Source: Marchantia polymorpha subsp. ruderalis
Lineage: Eukaryota > Streptophyta > Marchantiopsida > Marchantiales > Marchantiaceae
Direction: 5' to 3'
DNA: 64,000 bases
Assembly (NCBI GenBank): GCA_037833965.1
Contig: AP031354.1
Coordinates: 9,774,001 to 9,838,000 of the forward strand
Positions 4,001 to 61,807 of the stretch are shown here, piece after piece. Numbering within the stretch: the stretch's first letter is position 1; every line of letters starts with the position of its first letter. The position numbers were made by a program, and so were the translations under genes. The notes beneath the pieces are model-generated. The model made no database searches and was not told the DNA's origin. It was given only the letters and a program-made list of their open reading frames with translations.

Positions 4001-5255
4001 TCAAAAATTACGTTGCTTCCAGGCAAAAACGTACACAGCGCATTTCAGAGCCAAGCAGATGAAGACCCCAGCAAGCAAGCAGACAACTATTGTATCTTAT
4101 CTTTCAACCCATCCGATGTTTCGCGTTCAGTTGCCTCTCTTCCATTTTGATTTGTCCTCATATTCAGCCATAATGTAAAACAAATTTGCGAATCTGTTAT
4201 GTGAGCCGAGGATTATTCGTTCTCTGATGAGATGCAAGCAATTTGAAGGAAATTTTGAATTCATTCTCCAGCACTCTTAAAATAACATCAGTTTTTTTGT
4301 TTTAACTCTATGATAGGAGTGAAGCAGTTGGTGGACCATCCAACACCTCTATGTGATTTCCACTACCGTAAACTCACGTGCCATTGGTGTGAGCCATAAA
4401 TGGTTTCAGATTGGCGAATCCAGGGTGCCATATACAGAACTCTTGCGAGTACGTTGCATGATCTATCAAATCCCCTCTTTAGCAACAGCGGGTATAAAGG
4501 TTAACAAGGTTACACCAAAAAGTACGGAAGATCCATCCAGCGTGAAACCAAAGGTTTAATTTCATCTAGCTCTATGGAAATGTTCAATAAATCAAAGTTA
4601 TCTAATTAGACAACACATCCAACAAAATATACAGAAAAGCATGAATCTATGAATCTATCAAAGAATTAAACACCTTGACTAAAATATCCAATGTATGCAA
4701 AAGAATGACAATGATATGTTCTCATGTCGGGATCGTCATCCGAAACTACGATAACGAACAGGTTAAACATGTTTAAAATTAAATTATTGCTTTGAGTCTC
4801 GTTACGTTATTGCAAGTTCCATTCTGTAAGGCTGGAATTGGGACCAACCAGAGGTTCATGACACTAAATTATGTTCATGAATATGTAACACGAGAAGCAG
4901 CCGCTTACATGAAAAGGCACGAATTCCATTTTGTTCGCAGGGACTTCAGCATAAAATTCGGGCACTTGAAGACGACGAGTGGAAGTCCGTGGCAAATTTG
5001 GAGATGCAGCCCCGGCGGCCTCAGATGAGAACTCTCAGCCACCGGCTGAGCCTGAAGTCCTGTGACGGAGAGGAGGCGGGGTCCAGGAGCTTAAAGACCA
5101 TCAGATGGTCAGTCCTACAGATGCACGTCGACTACCATCATTTTCGACAAATACAAGAGCAGATTTTAGAGACCGAACCATCGTAATGTTCGTGCACTCT
5201 TGACTGCTCACTGTAACGGGTTACTCGAAATTCAATCCGTGGATTGAGTTTTAGA
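4001..5255 (+). promoter_or_regulatory. Upstream region and leader of the TauE/SafE-like gene
   Basis: The 1.25 kb before the transporter start becomes GC-richer toward the gene. A TATA-like motif (TATAAAGG) lies at 4493-4500, about 760 bp before the ATG. If used, it implies a long leader or a spliced one. Short open frames at 4353-4559, 4792-5028 and 4989-5186 have no recognisable motif and are more likely upstream ORFs than genes. The promoter assignment is inference. Confidence 0.3.
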
Positions 5256-6692
5256 ATGGAGTCTCGTATCAATGTACAGATTTTAGTCGTGATTATTTCG
5301 ACAATTTTTGTGGTCTGTCATTCGTCTCCAGCAGAGGACGATGTCGCTACCTCGGCCTTCTTGAAATCAAGCAGCAGCAGAGTGAGCTTCTGGAAAGAGA
5401 ACGAGCAGTGGCTTAAGTCGTTCGTGGGTGCAATCGATGACGATGAAGATCTCGGCGACAAGTGGCCCAAGCTTGAGCTCAGCTGGCGCCTGTTTATGGG
5501 CACTTTGGTGGGATTCGCTGGATCCGCATTGGGTAGCGCAGCTGGAGTGGGAGGCGGGGGATTTTACTTAACAATGCTCAATTTGTTCATCGGCTTCGAC
5601 GCCAAGACATCAACCGCTCTCTCCAAAGCGATGGTGATGGGGGCTGCCGTCGCGTCTACGCTTTTCAATCTCAGAGAGAGGCACCCTACGGAGAAGAATA
5701 AGCCTGTCATCGATTATTCCATGGCAGTTCTGTTTCAGCCCTTACTGCTCGTGGGAATCAGTATCGGAGTTATTTTTAACGTAATGCTGCCTGAGTGGCT
5801 GATCACCGTGTTCCTGTGCGTTCTATTCTTTCAAATAAGCTCGGGGGCCATCTCCAGAGCGAATGAATTGTCGCGGCGAGAGAAAATGCTGCGGAAGACC
5901 GAGCAATGTGCAACCGCGGAAGGCGAATGCGGAAGCGGAGAGTACGTTGCCATCAGCTCGGGAGATGAATCACCAGCGGAAGCTGAAGAAAATGTTCCGA
6001 CACCTTTCAAGCTCATGATCGTGTGGAGCAAGACGGCAATGTTGTTGGTCACCTGGGCCATCTTTCTCTTACTGCAAATCACCAAATTGTACGTCCCAGA
6101 CTGCTCCGCCTGGTACTGGATTCTGAATGCCGTACAGATTCCTGTGGCGCTAGGAGTCACATGTTATGAGGCGTGGAACCAAAAGCGGAATCAGAGACAC
6201 CAACTTCATTCAGAATTGGGCGTGCCAGACGAGAGGAAGGCTCCATCGGGATTATGGAAGTATTTTCTGTACGCAACTTACGGCCTCGGAGGTGGGATCA
6301 TTGGTGGCCTTCTCGGAGTAGGCGGGGGTGCGATCATGGGACCTGCGTATTTAGAGCTGGGATTGCCTCCTCAGGTCGCCAGTTCCACTGCCAGCTTCGT
6401 CATGGTCTTCTCTTCATCCCTGTCTGTGATGGAATACTGGCTTCTGGATCGACTCCCTGGGGCCTACGGAGTTTATTGCGTATCGCTGGCGGTGGTGGCA
6501 TCTCTGTGCGGCCAGGTTATCATCAAGAGAGTCGTTCAAGCAACTGGCAGGGCTTCCTTGATAGTGTACACATTAGCTTTCAGTGTCTTGGCCTCTGGAA
6601 TTGTACTCACCATCTTGGGAGCGATCAGAATCTACATCACATGGACCTCAGGAGGCTACATGGGATTTAACAGCGTATGCGCAGCTCCGTGA
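5256..6692 (+). CDS. TauE/SafE-family sulfite/sulfur-anion exporter-like membrane protein, intronless
   Basis: A single uninterrupted frame encodes 478 aa. I chose the ATG at 5256; a TTG four codons upstream is in frame but is not a plausible plant start. The protein has an N-terminal hydrophobic segment (about residues 8-20) compatible with a signal peptide. Two homologous membrane halves follow, each opening with the glycine-rich signature of the family: AGVGGGGF near residue 96 and GGIIGGLLGVGGG near 345. A hydrophilic acidic loop (about 205-255) separates them. The second half contains ASSTASFVMVFSSSLSVMEY, very typical of plant TauE proteins. Family members are polytopic anion transporters. 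Bacterial ones export sulfite, sulfoacetate or taurine-derived compounds, but the plant substrates are mostly unknown, so substrate and membrane location are inference. Length matches plant homologues and there are no breaks. The absence of introns is noteworthy but not abnormal. Confidence 0.93.
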   Translation: MESRINVQILVVIISTIFVVCHSSPAEDDVATSAFLKSSSSRVSFWKENEQWLKSFVGAIDDDEDLGDKWPKLELSWRLFMGTLVGFAGSALGSAAGVGGGGFYLTMLNLFIGFDAKTSTALSKAMVMGAAVASTLFNLRERHPTEKNKPVIDYSMAVLFQPLLLVGISIGVIFNVMLPEWLITVFLCVLFFQISSGAISRANELSRREKMLRKTEQCATAEGECGSGEYVAISSGDESPAEAEENVPTPFKLMIVWSKTAMLLVTWAIFLLLQITKLYVPDCSAWYWILNAVQIPVALGVTCYEAWNQKRNQRHQLHSELGVPDERKAPSGLWKYFLYATYGLGGGIIGGLLGVGGGAIMGPAYLELGLPPQVASSTASFVMVFSSSLSVMEYWLLDRLPGAYGVYCVSLAVVASLCGQVIIKRVVQATGRASLIVYTLAFSVLASGIVLTILGAIRIYITWTSGGYMGFNSVCAAP

Positions 6693-15950: not shown

Positions 15951-17230
15951 CGCGAGTTGACGTGTAAATCCTCGATGTGCTGGCGTGTGATGATCGGGCT
16001 AACCGAACCAAAGTCTATTCCTACCGGGCGCTCGGGGTCATCGTTGCTAGGTCATGGAAGGAATTCTGGCAATCCACGGAAGTAAGGGAATAAACATTCC
16101 GCTTTGAGATTTGCAGCCAGCGTCCACCTGCTTTTCGGAATAGGTTAGAACCTGTTATTTGCGCTTTACTTCAACATTTGTCCGAGGCTGAAGCTGTTCG
16201 TGAAGCTTTTCAGAGCCTAAGTTGACTGCCGAGCGGATCACCGCGCCTTCCGGTCAGAGCGTCGCGGTCCCGATCTTGACTTCCGCGACGATCGGGCTTT
16301 GGAATGCGAGAGTCACGACGGCAGCGACCAGCGGGGAGAGGATCCGCGGATCTTCGGGTCCTCGGGTCCTTCCTTTTTATGAAAGATACCGCATCTTCTG
16401 TCACCGGGATCCGATGTGGGGGAAACCCGAGTTCCATGCTATTCCGAAAATCGTTCGGCCAGATATATCTCCGACGAAGGCCGAGGTGGCAGCGCGGCCA
16501 GGGTTCGACATGTCGGCATTCTCCTCCCTGGAGGGTTCGTCCAAATCCACTTGGAAGGTTGCAAGTTGACCCGAGTGCGGCTGTCCAGTCAACTGACGAG
16601 CCGCACCTCGGGTCAACTTGCGAGCTTTCTTTAAGCCGCAGATCTCACAATTTCGGGCTGCACGGAAAAGAAGCCCCGAGGATAAGGGGGAGCGATCGGA
16701 AGTAAATGCCGGATCGCGAAGCAAATGGATCGGGGCAAATGGTCGAATTGGTGAGCGTTCTTTTTCTGACCGGGACGAGGCATGCTTCGGGACCGGCGGC
16801 CACGAAGCACAAAGTGGGTAATAATCCGGACAAGGACCACCCAATCCAAGACAAAGTTAAAGGATCGACGTACGGCGTTCTTGCGGGTTTCTACTTTATC
16901 CGTAAAGCGAACAGAGAGCGGAAGTTCTTGTCGCCGTTCGAACGTCGGGGCTGCGGCATCTGACCGGACCCGATCGACGGGGCGACCGCAAGAAAGGGTG
17001 GCCTCGCGGGGGTCCACTGCGCTGCGTACTGCGTAAATCCTCAATCCTACCTGTCCGGAGTCCGGAATTCCAAGCGGATGAGCCACATTCCCATCCGCGA
17101 CAACGCGACAGGTCACATGGTCATCCGCCATGCATACGCCTAGATGCGGTGACAGGCCCCGCGGGTAGGGACTCGGGGCCCTCGAAAATCTGTCCCCCAC
17201 AACCACATTCGGACTTATTTAAGCGCATGG
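15951..17230 (+). promoter_or_regulatory. GC-rich upstream region of the RING-H2 gene
   Basis: Composition rises sharply to GC-rich with many CpG dinucleotides, in contrast with the deserts. Open frames up to 191 codons (minus 16631-17206) occur in nearly every frame on both strands, as expected in GC-rich DNA with few stops. None shows a domain. I read the block as promoter and proximal regulatory DNA of the downstream gene, though an unrecognised divergent transcript cannot be excluded. Confidence 0.35.
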
Positions 17231-17240
17231 TATAAATAAA
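17231..17240 (+). promoter_or_regulatory. Putative TATA box of the RING-H2 gene
   Basis: TATAAATAAA stands alone in otherwise GC-rich sequence, at the boundary before the purine-rich leader. A start site about 30 bp downstream (near 17262-17270) would follow. This fits the consensus and position but is not proven; the coding exons begin 2.3 kb further on. Confidence 0.5.
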
Positions 17241-17599
17241 ATGTACGCCATTCCGAGCTAATCCCGGGCTCATTCGCGGGTTCCTCTCCTCCTGACCTGC
17301 CACGGGCATGACAGGTGGGCGCTCGAGGGCAGAAGACGGGCCGGCGAAGCCAAGCAGGTCCTCTGGCTCGGCTGCTGGCGCGGGGGAGGAGGAGGTGGTG
17401 GCCAAGAAGACGGGCAGGCAGTGAAGGAATGGGCAGGGCAGGGAAGGGAATGGAAGGGCAGGAGTGGGGGCGGGGCGGGGAGCGCGAGTCAGAGCTCCGG
17501 TGGGGGAGGGGGGCAGTGATTCCAGAGTCAGCGATGGGGTAAATTCGACGGGAGGAGTGCTCGACGTACGCGGAGGTGGAGGAGGAGGCGAGAGCGGCT

Positions 17600-17622
17600 G
17601 ATTGATTGATTGATTGATTGAT
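17600..17622 (+). repeat. (GATT)n microsatellite in the RING-H2 gene leader
   Basis: More than five GATT units in a row. The end of the repeat supplies the ATG of the 97-codon upstream ORF at 17621. Confidence 0.9.
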
Positions 17623-17914
17623 GCGAGGGGCGGCCTCTACAGAGGCCTCGTTGTCAGGAGCGAGGGGCGGAAAGATCGAACGAACGAGGCGAGGGAGGAA
17701 GGAGGGCAGAAGGAGGGCAGTGGATCGAGCGGAGGCGAGTGGAGTCGGGAACTCGGGGCTGGAGCGAGTCGGGCTGAGGGCGGCACTCCACTCCGTTGGA
17801 GGTTCTGTTGGCAGGCAAGGCAGGCAGGCACCCCGAGGGCCCGGGGAGGTTTTTGTTCGCATGCGCGGATGGTTGTTGCTGTCGTTGTTAGTGAGCGGAG
17901 ATGGCGCTGATTAG
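17621..17914 (+). other. Upstream ORF of 97 codons in the RING-H2 gene leader
   Basis: It starts at ATG 17621 and stops at 17914 well before the main coding exons. The product is Arg/Gly/Ser-rich and looks like translated purine-rich leader, not a protein family. If retained in the mRNA it would be expected to depress translation of the main frame. Confidence 0.4.
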
Positions 17915-17974
17915 TCCTTAAATGAAGGTGGACCGAATGATGCTGCGGTGACGAGCATCGGTGGAGCTTTTCGG

Positions 17975-17991
17975 GCGAGCGAGCGAGCGAG
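17975..17991 (+). repeat. (GAGC)n microsatellite in the RING-H2 gene leader
   Basis: About four consecutive GAGC units. Similar GAGC runs recur near 27974-27990 and 56537-56550 in the window. Confidence 0.8.
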
Positions 17992-19615
17992 TCGTAACTC
18001 CACTGCTCGACGTCGGGGTTCATGTAGGTCCGAGAGTGGACTGTATAGGCACACCTTTTCCCGTTCGCATTGCTTCTTGCCACGCGCTGGTGGTCCCGAG
18101 TGCGGTTATCTCTATTGGACGCTGGGAGAAGAGTGTTATGGCCGCAGTGATGGGTTGAAGCCGGAGGCCGAGAGACCTAGCGCGCTCATTGCGGCATTCA
18201 TACTCCCTCGTCAACACTATCTTCTCCTTTTCCCGTCCCTGCCATCTTTTTCCTCTCTCCGTGGGACTGGTCGTCTTGGCTTCGGCTGCCCCCGCCGCGG
18301 GATCTCCTCGCCTCTCTGATCTCTCTTCGCAGAGAAGGCACATTTCGAAGGTTTGGGTGGTGCTCTGCCAATAAGAGCCGGTTCGTTCTCTGTAACGCTC
18401 GCCGAGTCCTCGGGCGCAAAACTCTCAAGCGTGCGTGTGTTTCTCGGTGGACGCCTCGTGTACGAGCTTTCTCGCTCTTGGGCCGCTACGGTTTCCGGAG
18501 CGCCGAGGTGTCATCTTTGGCACGGGTTGCCCCACTGCGAAGTTCGTGTCGCTGCACACCGACGACGACGACTACCCTTTTGAAACGCCCGTCTCAGTCG
18601 CTTCGTTTACCGCTTCTTCGGTCGTACGATCACTAAGTTGCTCCGCTTTAGGTCACGGATGCTCATGAAGTGCTTTCAGCCCGAAAATATTTCCCGGGTC
18701 ACAGACCAAGAACCGCAGTCGAGGCCTGGAGGATCGAATGATTTGTTTCTGAACTGAAGCAGGCGGCGACTGATTCGGAAACCTTATCTTAAACCTTTCC
18801 GGTCGACGAGCCACGTTTGTAGCCTCAAACGTTTCACCTCTACCGCGAACACGAAGAGGAATTCTGACAGTAATTTCCAAGGCTTTGAGGCGGGAGGGCT
18901 GCTCTCCTCAGATCTGGAGGTTTTCTCAGTGCAATTCGCCGAGATATCTCAGGAGGTTACATTCCTGGATTTGTTCCAACTGTGCTTTTCAACCGGCCTG
19001 TTGTCTCGATGATACCTTGGTCTCGGATGATTTCTTGAGACGCCGCGTGGTCCGACGATTGCGAATTTGTTCACGGCGGGTTCAATCAAAGAGCTACAGA
19101 TCTGAAGACCATGTAGTAGTTGGACGATTGAGAATTTGATGCGACGATGGCTCAAAATTCACAGAGTTTTTGTCTTGCGCAAACCTGTGTCTCATGAAGA
19201 CTGGAGGTCAGTAGTCTGTCGGACAGGGGCGAGGTGGACAGGAAGCGGTTCTCTAATGTCGGCGATGTCGGTTGTGTATTATGACCTATGTGGTCTGGTT
19301 GGACTGGACTACACTGGATGCGGTAGTACCATGAAAGACAGTTGCAGGTGCTCTCGTGCCTGATTTTCTCCACTGTCGAAGATCGTATGAACTTGACAGT
19401 CGGAGGAGAAACAGACTACAGTGCTCGATGAAGAGATGTCGGTTTCTTGACCTAGCGGGTGTGTCTCCATGACGGGAAGCATTTCGATGGGGAAATGATA
19501 AAAATCGATTGACGAGACGAGACTGTGAAACTAGAGAAACTCCGGGTCTATACAGCGAGTCAAAATAGGTTGCTCAACTTCTAAGGTTTTAGGCTGCAAC
19601 CAAAAGTCAGCCAAA

Positions 19616-22276
19616 ACGGGGTCCCTCTGTTGTGTGGCCGCAAGGCCACACGGATCCGCTGTCAGCAACGACAACTGGTCTAATGGGGCTCGTGAGCCGC
19701 ACTGGCGCACCAACGGCGGGTTTTCACCTCCTCTCAATAGTCGATGGGAAAATAAATCGCAGCCCGAGGAATTGGCTGCAGCCGCGAGCGCTCTTCAGCT
19801 GCAAAGGCAGTCGTTCTCATCCAGTAGCCGGGGAAGTAGGAGCAACAGTCGAGCGGGTAGTGCAAGATTCCTCGGCCATCAGCGAAACATCTCTGGGAGC
19901 ATGTTCTCTCACAGTGGAAGCCCTTCCGAAAGCTTCCGTGCTCCTCACTGGAATCCACTTTCTTCGTCGAGTGGCCACATGGAAAACTATATAGCTGCTG
20001 CTTCAGGTACTACAAAGCTACTAATGAGTTTGAAAAGTCCGCTGTCTAGGAGCTATCACGCTTTACATCTAGTATATCATTGTGTAATACTGACTGGGGT
20101 CAGGTTGAATGCTTACTTCCAGGAATCCTTATTTTGCCTGGGTTGTAGTTTTTCCCAATATGTCACTTTTAACCCCGTCGAGATGTAGGCGAGAAGTTAG
20201 AGGGGATGTGACAGTGTTTCTCACAGTCATGCGATAGATAAATGCTGCAGATTGGCGCATTAGGAATTGCTACTCTCTCCTGTTATTTGGCTGCTTTGTG
20301 CTATCGACCCTCGTAGCATCTACGATACTCGTTTGATCAGTCACTTTGCAAGCGGCCAATAGCAGTCACGTTCAACTATCAAAACCGTGCTGTATGACTC
20401 ATGATGCAACATTGGATGGTATCGTCTGTCTATTGATCGGTGCAAGCCTTCCATCTACAGGTCTCACTAGTATAGAAATCACCATGATACGTGCACTTCA
20501 AGGGAGATGTATATCCACGCTTGCTTCTTAAAGTTGTTGTCATGCATTTTTTGAATTTTGCGGTCCTAATTTGAAATTTGGGCTATCTGAAAACTGCTCG
20601 AGAGGAGTCAGTGTCAGATTCTGTTGTTGTTACGTTATCTTTTTTGTTTCAAACAATTTTTGTTAAAAAAGCAACCATTGTTTCTAGACAATTACGAGTA
20701 GTGACCCATTGGGATCTGGTTGTGGCTGCAGATTCGATTTCCAGTCCGTCAATAACCATCATTTCTTCCAAGGAGGTACGTAACTCTATCCGAGCTCGCA
20801 CATCAAAATGGATTAGTCAACCGACTTTATTGTTTTTCCTGCGCTCTGTTCATTTTACCTTATGGTTACACGTTTGAGGGTCGGTCCCTCTAGCTGAAGG
20901 TTGAAGTTTATGATCGTGAATCTCACTCTGCCTAGTTTCGTATTTCTAAATAGTTCGATACTTCTGTAGAGAATCTTGTGCAATCTGTCATTGGCTTCTC
21001 CGTTGACATGAGCTTTCAATTGTGTGGGTTGTAAGAGATGGAAATTGGTGGAACCTTTTTTCTTTGTAGGAGCCCACTATGCCCATTTTCGCCAGAGGTG
21101 TTGAAATCTGTTCTGTGATGTGTGTTGGTGCAGGGTTGTCTTTCTGGCAATTTCTCGACCGTGTCAAATACACCAGAGTCTACCCCATCCTCCTACGTCG
21201 GCGAATACTCTCACGCATCAGCTGCGTGTCAGCCGTCTTCCTCTCAGCGACAGCAGCCAGGCAGTCATTGTTTCCTGTCAAAGTCAGCATTTTCCATGGG
21301 TTCGCATCCTCATCTAACGAGGCAAACGTCCGACAGCAGAATCCATGGGGTTGGTAGCAGTCGAACGGCTGAGGGCCGGCACGAAGGAAGACATTCTTTC
21401 CGATGGTCCGGGAGCAGCGGAGGGGAGTCTAGTGTGGGCTCGCTTGGTGGTGCTTCGGATTGGTGGTCTATGCAAACGTTTTCCGAGCTTGTTGCCTCCT
21501 CCCGTAGAGAGCGACTCCGGTGGACAAGTGCCAGTAGTCCATCGGATTTCGGTTGGGGATCAACTCGGGAAAGCTTTGATCGTGGCTTGCTGGTCATGGA
21601 CAGAATTCGTGCAGGGACCACTCAAGCGACTTCATCTTCTCCTCGCGCTGAAGCTCAAGCATGTGGTGTGTGCTCACGACTTCTATCTCAACGATCTCCC
21701 TGGAGCTCCTACAGGATGGTGGGAAGCAGTGATTGTACAGTAGTGGGTGTTCTAGTTTGTGGTCATGTATATCATGGTGAGTGCTTGGAGCAGGCCACTC
21801 CCGAGGCCAAACGACAAGATCCTCCTTGTCCTCGTTGCGGAGCAGCAGAGAAGGCAGCCCAAAAGTCAACGAATAGCGTAGAGCCCGCGCAGTTGGCTAA
21901 AGGAAGTGGCTCGAAGACGAGCAGTGTGCAGAGTCAGTCATCATCCAGGAACAAACTCTCTAGGATTGGCGTTGCAACAGACGATATTTCTGGACCTGAA
22001 TTTTCTTCAAGGCATTCATTCAGTGAGGGAGGAAAATCAGTGTTGCCGACATCATTAAGCGAGAAGTTATCTCTTGGGAAATCCCTGTCCAGACGACAAT
22101 TCTCGTTCAGAAACAGGTCTGCGAAAGAATCTAGTGGTGGGGATGCTGTGTCCAAGAAACCTGGTTCTCCTGCCCGAGTGTCTCCTGACAGCTCATCAGA
22201 AGACCAATCGACCTCGACCGTTTCCCAACTCAAAAAACTTCGTTCCAACTCTTTCAGATATTTGAAGAAAAGGTAA
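19616..22276 (+). CDS. RING-H2 finger protein of the plant MGSxCCVAA family (probable E3 ubiquitin ligase), three coding exons, ACG at the start position
   Basis: Coding exons are 19616-20006, 20732-20775 and 21134-22276, with GT-AG introns of phase 1 and phase 0. The frame closes exactly and gives 525 aa. The N-terminus reads TGSLCCVAAR where the plant family has MGSxCCVAAR, so the initiator Met position holds ACG (19616-19618). The frame has no ATG back to a TAG at 19532. A low-complexity Ser-rich region follows, then the family signature SDWWSMQTFSELVASSRRER (about residues 252-271). The RING-H2 domain spans about 322-380, with CGVC, then CGHVYH and ECLE, then CPRC as zinc ligands. The C-terminus has SRRQFSF, also shared with the family. 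Such proteins are expected to transfer ubiquitin with an E2. Gly2 and two Cys suggest lipid anchoring at a membrane. Substrates are unknown. Alternative: an upstream exon supplies the Met. Confidence 0.85.
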
Positions 22277-29853: not shown

Positions 29854-29935
29854 CGTCCGGAAAGCTGCTATATGCCTACACTGCGCAGCAAGGGCGTCCG
29901 GAAAGCTGCTATATGCCTACACTGCGCAGCAAGGG
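29854..29935 (+). repeat. Perfect 41-bp tandem duplication inside the LINE
   Basis: The units 29854-29894 and 29895-29935 are identical, and the first four bases of a third copy follow. Since 41 is not a multiple of three, the duplication shifts the reading frame, and the same DNA is read in two different frames in succession. Confidence 0.93.
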
Positions 29936-29979
29936 CGTCATTGGTGTCGTTCAGATTGAGTCTGTCCATTCCCATCAGC

Positions 29980-54075: not shown

Positions 54076-54807
54076 CTATGGGGTTGTTTCTTCAGGTGCC
54101 CCCACTGCTGCTGGGGCCTGGGGTTCATCATCATTAATTTTTTTGGATACTTGTGTAGGAATCAGAGGTGGGAGAGTTATCTTTACATTACGGGAAAGAT
54201 TAGCAATCCCCAGTGTTGTCTTTGGCTCAAAGGGGTTGGGGTTGGGCTGGTTTGGCACTCTTGGAAGTTCTCCTTCGAAGGTTCGATGGTGTTTCCTTGT
54301 CAACATTGTCCCCTTTCTTTTCTTGTATTGTGCCCGTCGTTTTTCTTTTCGTGACAGTGGAAGGACGAGGCCATTGGGCCTTGTCTGTGATGAATCTTTC
54401 CCTCACGAGTATGCGCTTATGAACATACTATAAAATACCAGTAAAAGGACTGCGTCAAAATGGCCATTGCCCACATGATGAGAACATTTTCGTCATCATT
54501 GGGGAAGTCTTATTCTGCCAGCCCATACGCTCCCCTCATGATACAGTGCGCACGGGCCGAGTAAGAACTCCTTTGCCATGTTGGTGATTTCCCGTGTAGG
54601 GAAGACTTGACTCGATCAGCAACTTCAACCGGCAATGTGAGGGGCAGGTTCTCCCTTGATGCCAAGCGGTTCTGCATAATGAAACTCTTCATTTGCGCCA
54701 CTAGTAGCAGAATTACTAGAACCATTTAATGTAACCTCACATTGGACTGGGGTCCCAGACATTGAAATTCTTTGCTCCAGCATAAGAATGCTGGAGCAAA
54801 GAGGCAT
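54076..54807 (-). pseudogene. Possible decayed protein-coding remnant on the minus strand, unidentified
   Basis: Minus-strand frames in succession look more protein-like than chance. From 54807 downward come MSGTPVQCEVTLNG and EEFHYAEPLGIKGE. After a frame change comes NLPLTLPVEVADRVKSSLHG, ending at 54510. Past a stop, DFPNDDENVLIMWAMAILTQ follows in the same frame. A frame at 54306-54076 then ends in a Pro-rich tail (NPNPFEPKTTLG, later PPLIPTQVSKKINDDEPQAP). Stops and frame changes between them argue for a pseudogene or a degraded retroelement protein. I do not recognise the family. A plus-strand frame (54059-54433) overlaps and is taken as a shadow. Confidence 0.3.
54769..54802. repeat. 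Perfect 15-bp inverted repeat with a 4-nt loop
   Basis: TCTTTGCTCCAGCAT, then AAGA, then ATGCTGGAGCAAAGA. The arms are exactly complementary, so a stable hairpin could form in DNA or RNA. It lies at the start of the possible minus-strand coding remnant. Function is unknown. Confidence 0.92.
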
Positions 54808-58501: not shown

Positions 58502-61500
58502 ATGGATCCTGTTACAATGCTGGCCAATATAGCACAGCTGATACAAATGGTCGTTATGTTGGGAGATAAGGCAAAGAGTCAAAAGATCAATTGCCAAAAT
58601 CTGGCCTCCAGAATCAAGCTCCTGAAACCACTGCTCGATGAAGTTCGTGACACGAAGATTCCCCTGAACAATCCCGCCATTGTTTCACTGGAAGCTTTGG
58701 AGGGTGCTATTTTGAAGGCAAAAGCGTTATTTGAGAAATGTGGAGGAAAGAGTAGCAAACTTTACATGGTGAGACCTAGATGGCAGTTCACAGAACGTCA
58801 GTTGATCTTCATTTGAGCATTGAAATGTAATGGAGGTGGGTAGAGCTGAAGCTTGTTGTTGAGTTTCTAAAGTCTAAACTGTGGTAGGGTAACTGAAGGA
58901 ATGGAGGAATCTTGAGGAAGACTTCTCAAGCACCGGCTCTTCCTTTTGTTGCTTTGACCGACTTATGTCATCACGTCTTACCGGAGAGGGAATGCGGGTA
59001 GCTGTAGTTGCTTGTAGCTGGGTTCGACATGTAGACAGAAAGCCTGGAATTTTTGTATAGACGCTAACCTCTCCCGAGCTGTCTACAGGTGCTGCGATGT
59101 CAAGTTTTCGTCAACAAGTTTCAAGATGTCACGGCAGAGATCGATCGATCTCTGACATCAATGCCACTTATGACTCTGAGGATTTCTGATCAGATTCGCG
59201 CCCAGGTATGTGCCCAAGGCGTTTGTGGTCTACATGAAACCTGGAAACGCTGCTTTTCTTCCCATAGGAATGATTTAGTTGACACGAGAAAGAGATGAGA
59301 CAGTTTATGCAACTCGCAGCGGTCGCCCTTTTGTTTGAACTGTCATAAACCTGAACGTATACAAGACTTTGAATGGGCGCTTCTTGGTTGAATCAGGTCG
59401 AACGTCTGACGCACGAGCTGAGGCGAACAAGATATCTGGTGGATGCATCTGATGAGCGAATTTCGCAGCAGATAGAAACCCTTCTGAGGGATCAAAGGGA
59501 AGGGAAAAAAGCGAGCTTCGAGATGCTGTGCAAGCTCGCTGATTGGTTGGAGATTGGATCAAAGGAGTTCATGGTGAAAGAAATTTGCGCGTTGGAGCTG
59601 GAGAAAGAAGAGGCCAAAGTAGAAGGAGACAAGCTGGAGGAGGAATACATCAACCAAATGAAGTCCTTGCTAGAACTAATGGTAGAAGAAATCGGCGAAC
59701 ACAAGGCTGGGGGCCTGCAGATTCCTCCTGATTTTCGGTGTCCACTCTCTTTGGAACTGATGTCCGATCCGGTCATAGTTGCTTCAGGGCAAACCTATGA
59801 ACGCTTGTATATACAACAATGGCTAGACCAAGGAAACACGACCTGTCCTAAGACCCGTCAAACTCTCTCCCATACTAATCTTATTCCAAATTACACTGTA
59901 AAGGCTCTAATCGCCAACTGGTGCGAGGCGAATAATGTGCCTCTTCCAGAGCCTGCAAAGATCGATATGCTGAATACATTCCTAAGGCCTCTTGTGCCTC
60001 TGATAAGTCCCAAGCATGAACCTGAGGAGCACAGAAACACAGAATCGCCTCCCAGGCCCATTCTGCAGCAGCCCGTTATTCTGCAACAGGTCCCAGAGCG
60101 AGGAATGTCTGGAATCGGCAGTCGTCCACCTGTGAAGTCGAAACGCACGTTCCACCCTCCCAGATTAGCCGATGAACGTGATGGGGAGCGGAGCAACGGG
60201 TTCCAGAACGGCGGGTCTGGGGAGGACCATGGAGAAGCGTCTCAAGCTGCTACTCGAAACACTTCCACCAACTCTGATGGAGAAATTACTCAACGTCGCA
60301 TTTCCTTGTTGAAAGATAAGTATGATGCCGATTCCGGCAATGAATCATCCTCCCCACTGCATCACCACCGTTCCGGTTCAGGTTCAAGTGTTGCCTCTAG
60401 TGTTGAAGATGGACAGGGATCGACCGTCACTCAAGAGAATGCTGCCAAAGAGGACAATTGTCAAGCAGTTCCTGAGTCGTCTCCATATCCGAGTGATGTC
60501 TCAGGCGAGTTGGACAGGCCTGTGGCTCCGACACCAGCGGAAGACAGCGGCTCTCCTTCACGCCCTCCAGACTCTGCTCGGATGGGTGGTGCACCATGGA
60601 GAAGACGCGGCGATGAACGAGATCAGGGTATGCCTAGAATTGTGCCCACTCCTTTACAAGATACCCTAGGATCGGATGCCAATGCTCATCTGGTGGTCGA
60701 TGGCCTAGTACTGGATCTGCATTCAGAGGATGTAGACGTACATAGGCATGCTGCCGCTGAATTGAGACTTCTCGCAAAATTCAACATGGAGAACCGAATT
60801 ATTATAGCAAACGCAGGTGCCATTAAACCTTTAGTTACGTTGTTGAAGTCGTCAGATGCAAAGACGCAGGAGAATGCTGTGACTGCTCTGCTCAACTTGT
60901 CAATCAATGACAACAACAAATCTGAAATCGCTTCTGCTGGAGCTATCGACCCTTTGGTGAATGTGCTCAAGGTGGGCAATGCACAGGCCATGGAAAATGC
61001 GGCGGCTACTCTTTTTAGCTTGTCGGTGATGGACGATAACAAAGTGACGATTGGCGCCTCGGGTGCTATTCCGCCATTAGTACATCTGCTCATAAACGGG
61101 ACACCCCGAGGGAAGAAAGATGCAGCAACTGCGCTGTTTAACCTGTCCATTTTTCGTGAAAACAAAGCTCGTATTGTCCACGCTGGAGCTATCAAACCTC
61201 TCGTGGAGCTTATGGCAGACCCTGCAGCTGGAATGGTGGACAAAGCCGTGGCAGTCCTGGCCAACCTTGCGACCATATCTGAAGGCAGAGTTGCAATCGG
61301 AGACGAAGGTGGCATTCCCGCTTTGGTTGAGGTTGTCGAGGCTGGTTCCCAAAGAGGAAAAGAAAATGCTGCAGCAGCTTTGTTGCAGCTGTGTATGAAT
61401 AGCAACAAACATCGAGCTCTTGTTTTGCAAGAAGGAGCCATTCCTCCTCTCGTTGCCCTCTCCCAGTCTGGAACAGCACGTGCCAAAGAGAAGGTACCTT

Positions 61501-61807
61501 CAGTTTTGAGAGTTGCACAAACCTCCTCATAAAACATTTTGGTTGTACGAGAATGTCTTCTAAAATTTTGCATCTTACAGAAAATGCCTGTCATTGACGT
61601 GTGTCGGAGAGTAGATGATAAAAGACCGTAGATGAGAAATTTAACCCTACATACAGTATTGACTGGTAGATATCACACGGTGATGGTCTTTTAGCAAGAT
61701 CTAACGATTCTCCGTGTAATCTGCAGGCATCTGCTTTACTCCGCCACTTCAGAGAGCAACGGCACCAGGGCTCAGGGCCACGGGCTGGTTCTGATAGACA
61801 TCTATGA
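58502..61807 (+). CDS. U-box/ARM-repeat E3 ubiquitin ligase of the plant PUB2/PUB4 type, four coding exons
   Basis: Exons are 58502-58768, 59089-59205, 59397-61493 and 61727-61807. All three introns are GT-AG and phase 0, and the frame gives 853 aa, close to the plant family's length. Domains in order: an N-terminal helical U-box-associated domain (about 1-235); a U-box (about 237-310) with IPPDFRCPLSLELMSDPVIV and ASGQTYERLYIQQWLDQG; a disordered Ser/Pro/charged linker (about 320-560); and ARM repeats (about 562-845) with recurring units such as NAGAIKPLVTLL, ENAVTALLNLSI and EKASALLRHFREQRH at the end. The last exon completes the conserved final helix, so the exon-3 frame running past 61493 is intron. 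The U-box recruits an E2 and the ARM repeats bind substrates or receptors. Relatives act in growth and receptor-kinase signalling; the partner here is unknown. Confidence 0.93.

Follow-up and report, generated by a model that had tools for sequence, protein, structure and literature searches.

A candidate ACG start codon and a well-placed predicted hairpin in a RING-H2 gene of Marchantia polymorpha

The window analysed here, a 64-kb stretch of M. polymorpha DNA at 9,774,001-9,838,000 of contig 5, taken as a whole, carries a RING-H2 gene on its + strand whose expected start codon reads ACG. Spliced across two introns with GT/AG borders, the gene's frame (19616-20006 + 20732-20775 + 21134-22276) spans 525 codons in three exons and has zero internal stops, as the sequence-only reading had proposed when it called the remainder of the RING-H2 protein intact. 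The features of the gene are as follows.

17231 to 17238, + strand: the string TATAAATA, which may be the TATA box of the gene
19616 to 19618, + strand: ACG, where the RING-H2 protein should begin (codon read from the sequence; its conservation as a start presumed)
19616 to 20006, + strand: coding exon 1, codons 1-130 plus one base, ending at donor CAG/GTACTA
20732 to 20775, + strand: coding exon 2
21134 to 22276, + strand: coding exon 3, holding the RING-H2 finger and ending in TAA

If TATAAATA is a TATA box, transcription would start at about 17262. The RING finger occupies approximately residues 320-381, where eight zinc ligands were recognised by eye with C3H2C3 spacing. Pfam RING models match it below their cut-offs, with zf-RING_Vps41 as the best row (E = 4.5e-4) and zf-rbx1 at E = 5.7e-4; the solved structures yielded four weak matches to the protein (E of 0.0068 or worse). 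A glycine directly follows the ACG, and its position as a Gly-2 for N-myristoylation depends on initiation at that codon. From the look of this motif, the product is a putative lipid-anchored RING-H2 E3 ligase.

Elsewhere in the window, positions 5217-6692 hold an open single-frame gene for a TauE/SafE-type membrane protein, and positions 59373-61532 hold an open 719-aa frame with a U-box and ARM repeats (PUB type), whose product is likely a second ubiquitin ligase. At 29854-29939, a 41-base unit occurs in two head-to-tail copies (TRF: 2.1 copies, 100% match); the 225-aa frame around this repeat scores slightly above the cut-off for zf-RVT, so a retroelement remnant is probable here. Searches for RNA families at gathering score and for tRNAs found none in the 64-kb window, and a scan for bacterial-type promoters was discarded as not applicable to a plant gene.

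The codons from the ACG read TGSLCCVAAR, with GSLCCVAAR following the ACG itself. We take the family of the Arabidopsis At4g39140/At2g21500 type to begin MGSxCCVAAR, which the residues after the ACG still match; this presumed start is the weakest link of the premise. The sequence bears out the earlier claims about the codon and its surroundings: positions 19616-19618 on the + strand are ACG and not ATG; the context is strong (GCCAAA-ACG-GGGT, with A at -3 and G at +4); and no ATG lies between the in-frame TAG at 19532-19534 and the ACG, the interval 19535-19615 being without an ATG in all frames. As in a non-AUG main ORF, a near-cognate codon is preceded here by an open stretch with no in-frame AUG, and the start of the protein is presumed to be conserved. 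A purine at -3 together with G at +4 places ACG 19616 in a favourable context; the plant start consensus is given as A/GNNAUGG in the available excerpt of PMC11062462.

Downstream of the ACG, ribosomes would meet an AUG in another frame.

19683 to 19685, + strand: the first AUG past the ACG, out of frame and opening 103 codons (frame scan)

Within the RING frame, the earliest ATG is that of residue 96, at 19901. Because AUG 19683 is out of frame and opens 103 codons, little RING protein is expected without either the ACG or an upstream Met, and ribosomes passing the ACG would seldom yield RING protein. The 103-codon frame itself (19683-19994) overlaps coding exon 1 and would engage ribosomes that had bypassed the ACG; as an ORF, it probably arose by chance.

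A second copy or paralogue of the gene was not found in the genome (nine contigs, 241,466,482 bases) by a degenerate ATG pattern, by a protein search, or by a DNA search with 19194-19700; the third match of the protein search (E = 3.46) was rejected as noise. The PsaD protein encoded in this genome is identical to PDB chain 9lut_D across its full 215 residues, and a primer used in the M. polymorpha literature has one exact match. Pattern searches for relatives returned 45 stretches from the bacterial and archaeal DNA collection and 9 from the viral collection, none of which was confirmed, and a literature search with strings from the N-terminus gave no match.

The coding sequence immediately after the ACG is predicted to fold into two nested structures.

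19632 to 19651, + strand: a perfect 8-bp stem, GTGTGGCC paired with GGCCACAC, capped by a GCAA tetraloop (predicted fold)
19619 to 19657, + strand: an outer 6-bp stem, 19619-19624 paired with 19652-19657, enclosing the hairpin (predicted fold)

Taking the A of the ACG as nucleotide 1, the hairpin has its 5′ border at nucleotide 17. Its calculated folding energy is -15.3 kcal/mol, with z = -4.59, and none of 200 shuffles of the 20-mer reached this value; counting two more pairs that include G-U, the stem extends to 10 bp, begins at nucleotide 15 and reaches -16.7 kcal/mol. On the 5′ side, a 7-nt unpaired stretch separates the outer stem from the hairpin, and the combined fold of 19619-19659 has an energy of -24.3 kcal/mol (0 of 200 shuffles). 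A longer stretch around the hairpin gave a z of -4.13 (0 of 200 shuffles), and the signal weakened as longer stretches were folded, to z = -3.09 for 19616-19676 (1 of 200) and z = -2.72 for 19593-19676 (2 of 200). In Kozak's experiments, as described in the available text of PMC2001202, a hairpin at 17 nt enhanced initiation, one at 11 nt did so less, and those at 5 and 35 nt did not; the same text sets the critical range at nucleotides 12-18 and reports that the hairpin also raised initiation at non-AUG codons in optimal context. The predicted stem border here falls within nucleotides 12-18 of the CDS. The hairpin, which the sequence-only reading did not mention, would thus be well placed for the ACG, and as a predicted structure it adds support for non-AUG initiation.

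The hairpin test followed the sighting of the inverted repeat; the position rule came from earlier literature. A first test, which scored whole enclosed structures in place of simple hairpins, was abandoned as the wrong measure, with 1991 of 5000 synonymous recodings passing -15.3 kcal/mol; in the same test, a stem of at least 8 bp appeared in 174 of 5000 recodings. It shows that synonymous recodings of this peptide are prone to structure generally. When simple hairpins beginning at nucleotides 12-18 were counted, energies of -15.3 kcal/mol or lower arose in 200 of 20,000 synonymous recodings and in 26 of 20,000 dinucleotide shuffles. At the stricter threshold of -16.7 kcal/mol or lower, the count was 103 of 20,000 recodings, and 18 of 20,000 when GSLCCVAAR was kept and the next two residues were drawn randomly. 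The peptide is therefore itself conducive to a hairpin of this kind, which 1 in 100 to 1 in 200 of its synonymous coding sequences would carry. Along the CDS, codons 1 and 2 are the only ones among 501 with such a hairpin at nucleotides 12-18, and none of the 51 starts of ATG-initiated ORFs reached -10 kcal/mol at these positions, the 51 being mechanical ORFs of at least 120 aa in which real and spurious genes are mixed. A density scan returned 12 rows at -15.3 kcal/mol or lower in 342,894 nt (both strands), corresponding to four distinct places; these rows include the target as well as mirror rows and nested rows, and the gene-overlapping loci L001, L002, L003 and L036 were excluded. Within that scan, very stable perfect hairpins were also seen on the + strand at 54774 (-16.9 kcal/mol) and 62120 (-16.1 kcal/mol). 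Two of the upstream ATGs, those at 17621 and 19331, are likewise followed by a hairpin at nucleotides 12-18, though a weaker one (-9.9 and -8.0 kcal/mol).

A Met may also be supplied from further upstream by splicing, for which the following features were located.

19194 to 19206, + strand: a rival start, ATG AAG ACT GGA G, then donor GTCAGT (score 3.49), adding 12 residues, MKTGGCNQKSAK
17308 to 17314, + strand: another rival start, ATG ACA G with donor GTGGGC directly after it, in frame when joined to 19593 and adding 10 residues
19593 to 19615, + strand: a possible 5′-leader end of the ACG exon, following acceptor ...GGTTTTAG/GCTGC (score 2.13)

An upstream exon would join most readily through 19206/19593, giving MKTGGCNQKSAK-TGSLCCVAAR, and second through 17314/19593. 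The resulting extension of 12 or 10 residues would bury Gly-2 and leave the old start codon free to become ACG (Thr). We judge this account rather unlikely, although it merits serious weight. Its donor at 19206 has the highest score within 17200-19560 (3.49, beside 3.04 and 5.31 for the gene's own donors), and its acceptor at 19592/19593 scores close to the gene's own first (2.13 and 2.15; the second scores 4.73), lies 23 bases before the ACG and alone exceeds 2 within 19535-19615. In the window, 5.5% of AGs score as well as this acceptor, and within 19000-19620 it is outscored by the acceptor at 19227 (2.38). These scores come from approximate splice matrices, and every modelled leader has a single intron. 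ATG 19194 is in frame through the junction 19206/19593, with an intron of 386 nt; the tables of M. polymorpha v7.1/v6.1, as far as they appear in the excerpt of PMC13078153, give a mean intron of 348-386 bp. The leader with donor 17314 contains one ATG, and it is in frame. In-frame ATGs that splicing might connect with 19593 lie at 19194, 17308, 19428 and 19288.

Against the upstream exon, an in-frame ATG comes with 4 of 18 donors whose score exceeds 0, close to the 1 in 4 that chance predicts. ATG 19194 sits in a weak context, lacking both a purine at -3 and a G at +4. In the two modelled leaders that use donor 19206, 8 or 22 other ATGs come before it. One of those earlier ATGs, at 19147, opens a uORF in strong context whose stop overlaps ATG 19194. 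Further, the old site has kept both its favourable context and its GSxCC motif, which free drift would not preserve for long. The uORF itself (19147-19197) has 16 codons, with A at -3 and G at +4, and its TGA shares the sequence ATGA with ATG 19194, an arrangement associated with termination-reinitiation. Of the four options it named, the sequence-only reading preferred a fresh allele and non-AUG initiation; the latter gains from the hairpin, but an upstream exon has proved a stronger competitor than that reading suggested.

The fresh allele would be a loss- or low-function variant of the strain, with its start changed from T to C and the rest of the gene still intact because the change is recent. 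We consider it improbable, while noting that all else in the gene is intact, that one transition suffices, and that a single assembly was seen. It leaves the well-placed hairpin unexplained, though the hairpin could predate the change. Marchantia polymorpha is haploid-dominant, and the searches above gave no second copy, so that nothing would be expected to mask a null allele if the gene were needed.

An error of sequencing or assembly draws on the same single assembly and on the fact that one base decides the case; it is nonetheless unlikely if the assembly is of v7.1 grade, for which the excerpt of PMC13078153 gives a HiFi quality value of 82.9. Among the matches listed, 11 of 11 histone starts identified by motif in this assembly are ATG (30 loci were scanned and 12 matches listed, of which one, a chance match on the wrong strand at L014, was dropped). 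Internal stops are also absent from TauE, RING and U-box/ARM, the three gene-like frames studied in the window, and this argues against indels more than against substitutions. Finally, C-to-U RNA editing could restore the AUG, as in chloroplast ndhD, and organelles are known to edit ACG into AUG (excerpt of PMC5295000). The RING-H2 gene, however, sits on a 33-Mb nuclear contig, and the same excerpt gives M. polymorpha 0 C-to-U sites even in its organelles; with a nuclear gene and no such organelle sites, editing is very unlikely, to the point that we regard it as the most far-fetched of the accounts.

The best explanation is that ACG 19616 is the start codon in use, aided by its context and by the well-placed hairpin, a proposal to which we give about as much credence as doubt. 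On this proposal, a scanning 43S complex with initiator Met-tRNA would meet the ACG in a near-ideal context (AAA before it and G after it). The leading edge of the complex would then run into the predicted hairpin, a stable structure capped by a GNRA loop and with its stem starting at nucleotide 17, and the complex would be held at the ACG. Met would be put in at the ACG and later removed, so that Gly-2, adjoining Ser-Leu-Cys-Cys, would become the N-terminus. The sequence itself gives the codon, its context, the intact frame, the out-of-frame next AUG and the predicted hairpin with its position; we infer the transcript structure, initiation at the ACG, the hairpin's effect, the lipidation and the ligase activity. 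Several points count against an ACG start: the codon is a rare initiator, the hairpin is favoured by the peptide, the outer stem begins at nucleotide 4, and there is a plausible rival upstream. In addition, the modelled leaders carry 9 to 32 upstream ATGs in six of eight cases, and 1 and 4 in the remaining two; where they are many, less scanning would reach the ACG unless they are spliced out. ACG starts are normally inefficient and, as a result, a low or regulated output would be expected from the gene.

Both starts might also be used, yielding two N-termini by start choice: an AUG in the upstream exon would produce an extended, non-lipidated ligase, and the ACG with its hairpin would produce a form anchored by a lipid at Gly-2. 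This combined arrangement is doubtful; if true, the balance between the two forms could be adjusted through the stringency of scanning. Should the ACG prove to be the start, the gene would be a natural plant main ORF that joins an ACG in optimal context to a hairpin placed at the optimum found in vitro. The ACG, the strong context and the hairpin at the best in vitro distance would together offer a small natural system for testing how a hairpin assists start selection, in a haploid-dominant host in which single-base edits are practical. The locus would also call for caution in gene prediction, where a putative lipidation motif could be cut off or a false exon added.

To our knowledge, few plant main ORFs with a non-AUG start have been described. 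The likeness of the present gene to the At4g39140/At2g21500 type lies in the RING-H2 finger and, presumably, in the N-terminal GSxCCVAAR; the difference is the start, taken to be ATG there and found as ACG here. At4g39140 is classed as RING type H2 in the excerpt of PMC4641371, where its table row reads No/No/nd under headings that lie outside the excerpt; ligase activity may have gone undetected there. Like the present candidate, the uORF of plant GGP/VTC2 has an ACG initiation codon in a nuclear mRNA (excerpts of PMC11066809 and PMC6878703), but it is a regulatory uORF and the ACG considered here opens a main ORF. The rarity of the codon is evident in Arabidopsis, where ACG was used by 1 of 68 peptide-supported downstream N-termini according to the available text of PMC8770321.

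The closest parallels are AGAMOUS and Kozak's hairpin. The study behind ACG initiation in AGAMOUS is reportedly that of Riechmann (1999). According to the excerpt of PMC2001202, the Arabidopsis AGAMOUS mRNA has a main ORF initiated at ACG and a predicted hairpin at nucleotide 30 with an energy of -19.9 kcal/mol. The two genes are alike as plant nuclear genes with a main ORF ascribed to an ACG start ahead of a stable predicted hairpin; the AGAMOUS hairpin, however, lies outside nucleotides 12-18, whereas the one here, at nucleotide 17, is closer to the in vitro optimum. Kozak's hairpin shares with the present one a stem border at nucleotide 17, an optimal context and a non-AUG codon, but it was designed and tested in vitro (excerpt of PMC2001202), and the effect of the hairpin here is a prediction only. 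A further difference concerns the outer stem, which here starts at nucleotide 4: in the same excerpt, a continuous structure from nucleotide 5 was unhelpful, whereas in the M. polymorpha fold a 7-nt gap intervenes before the hairpin.
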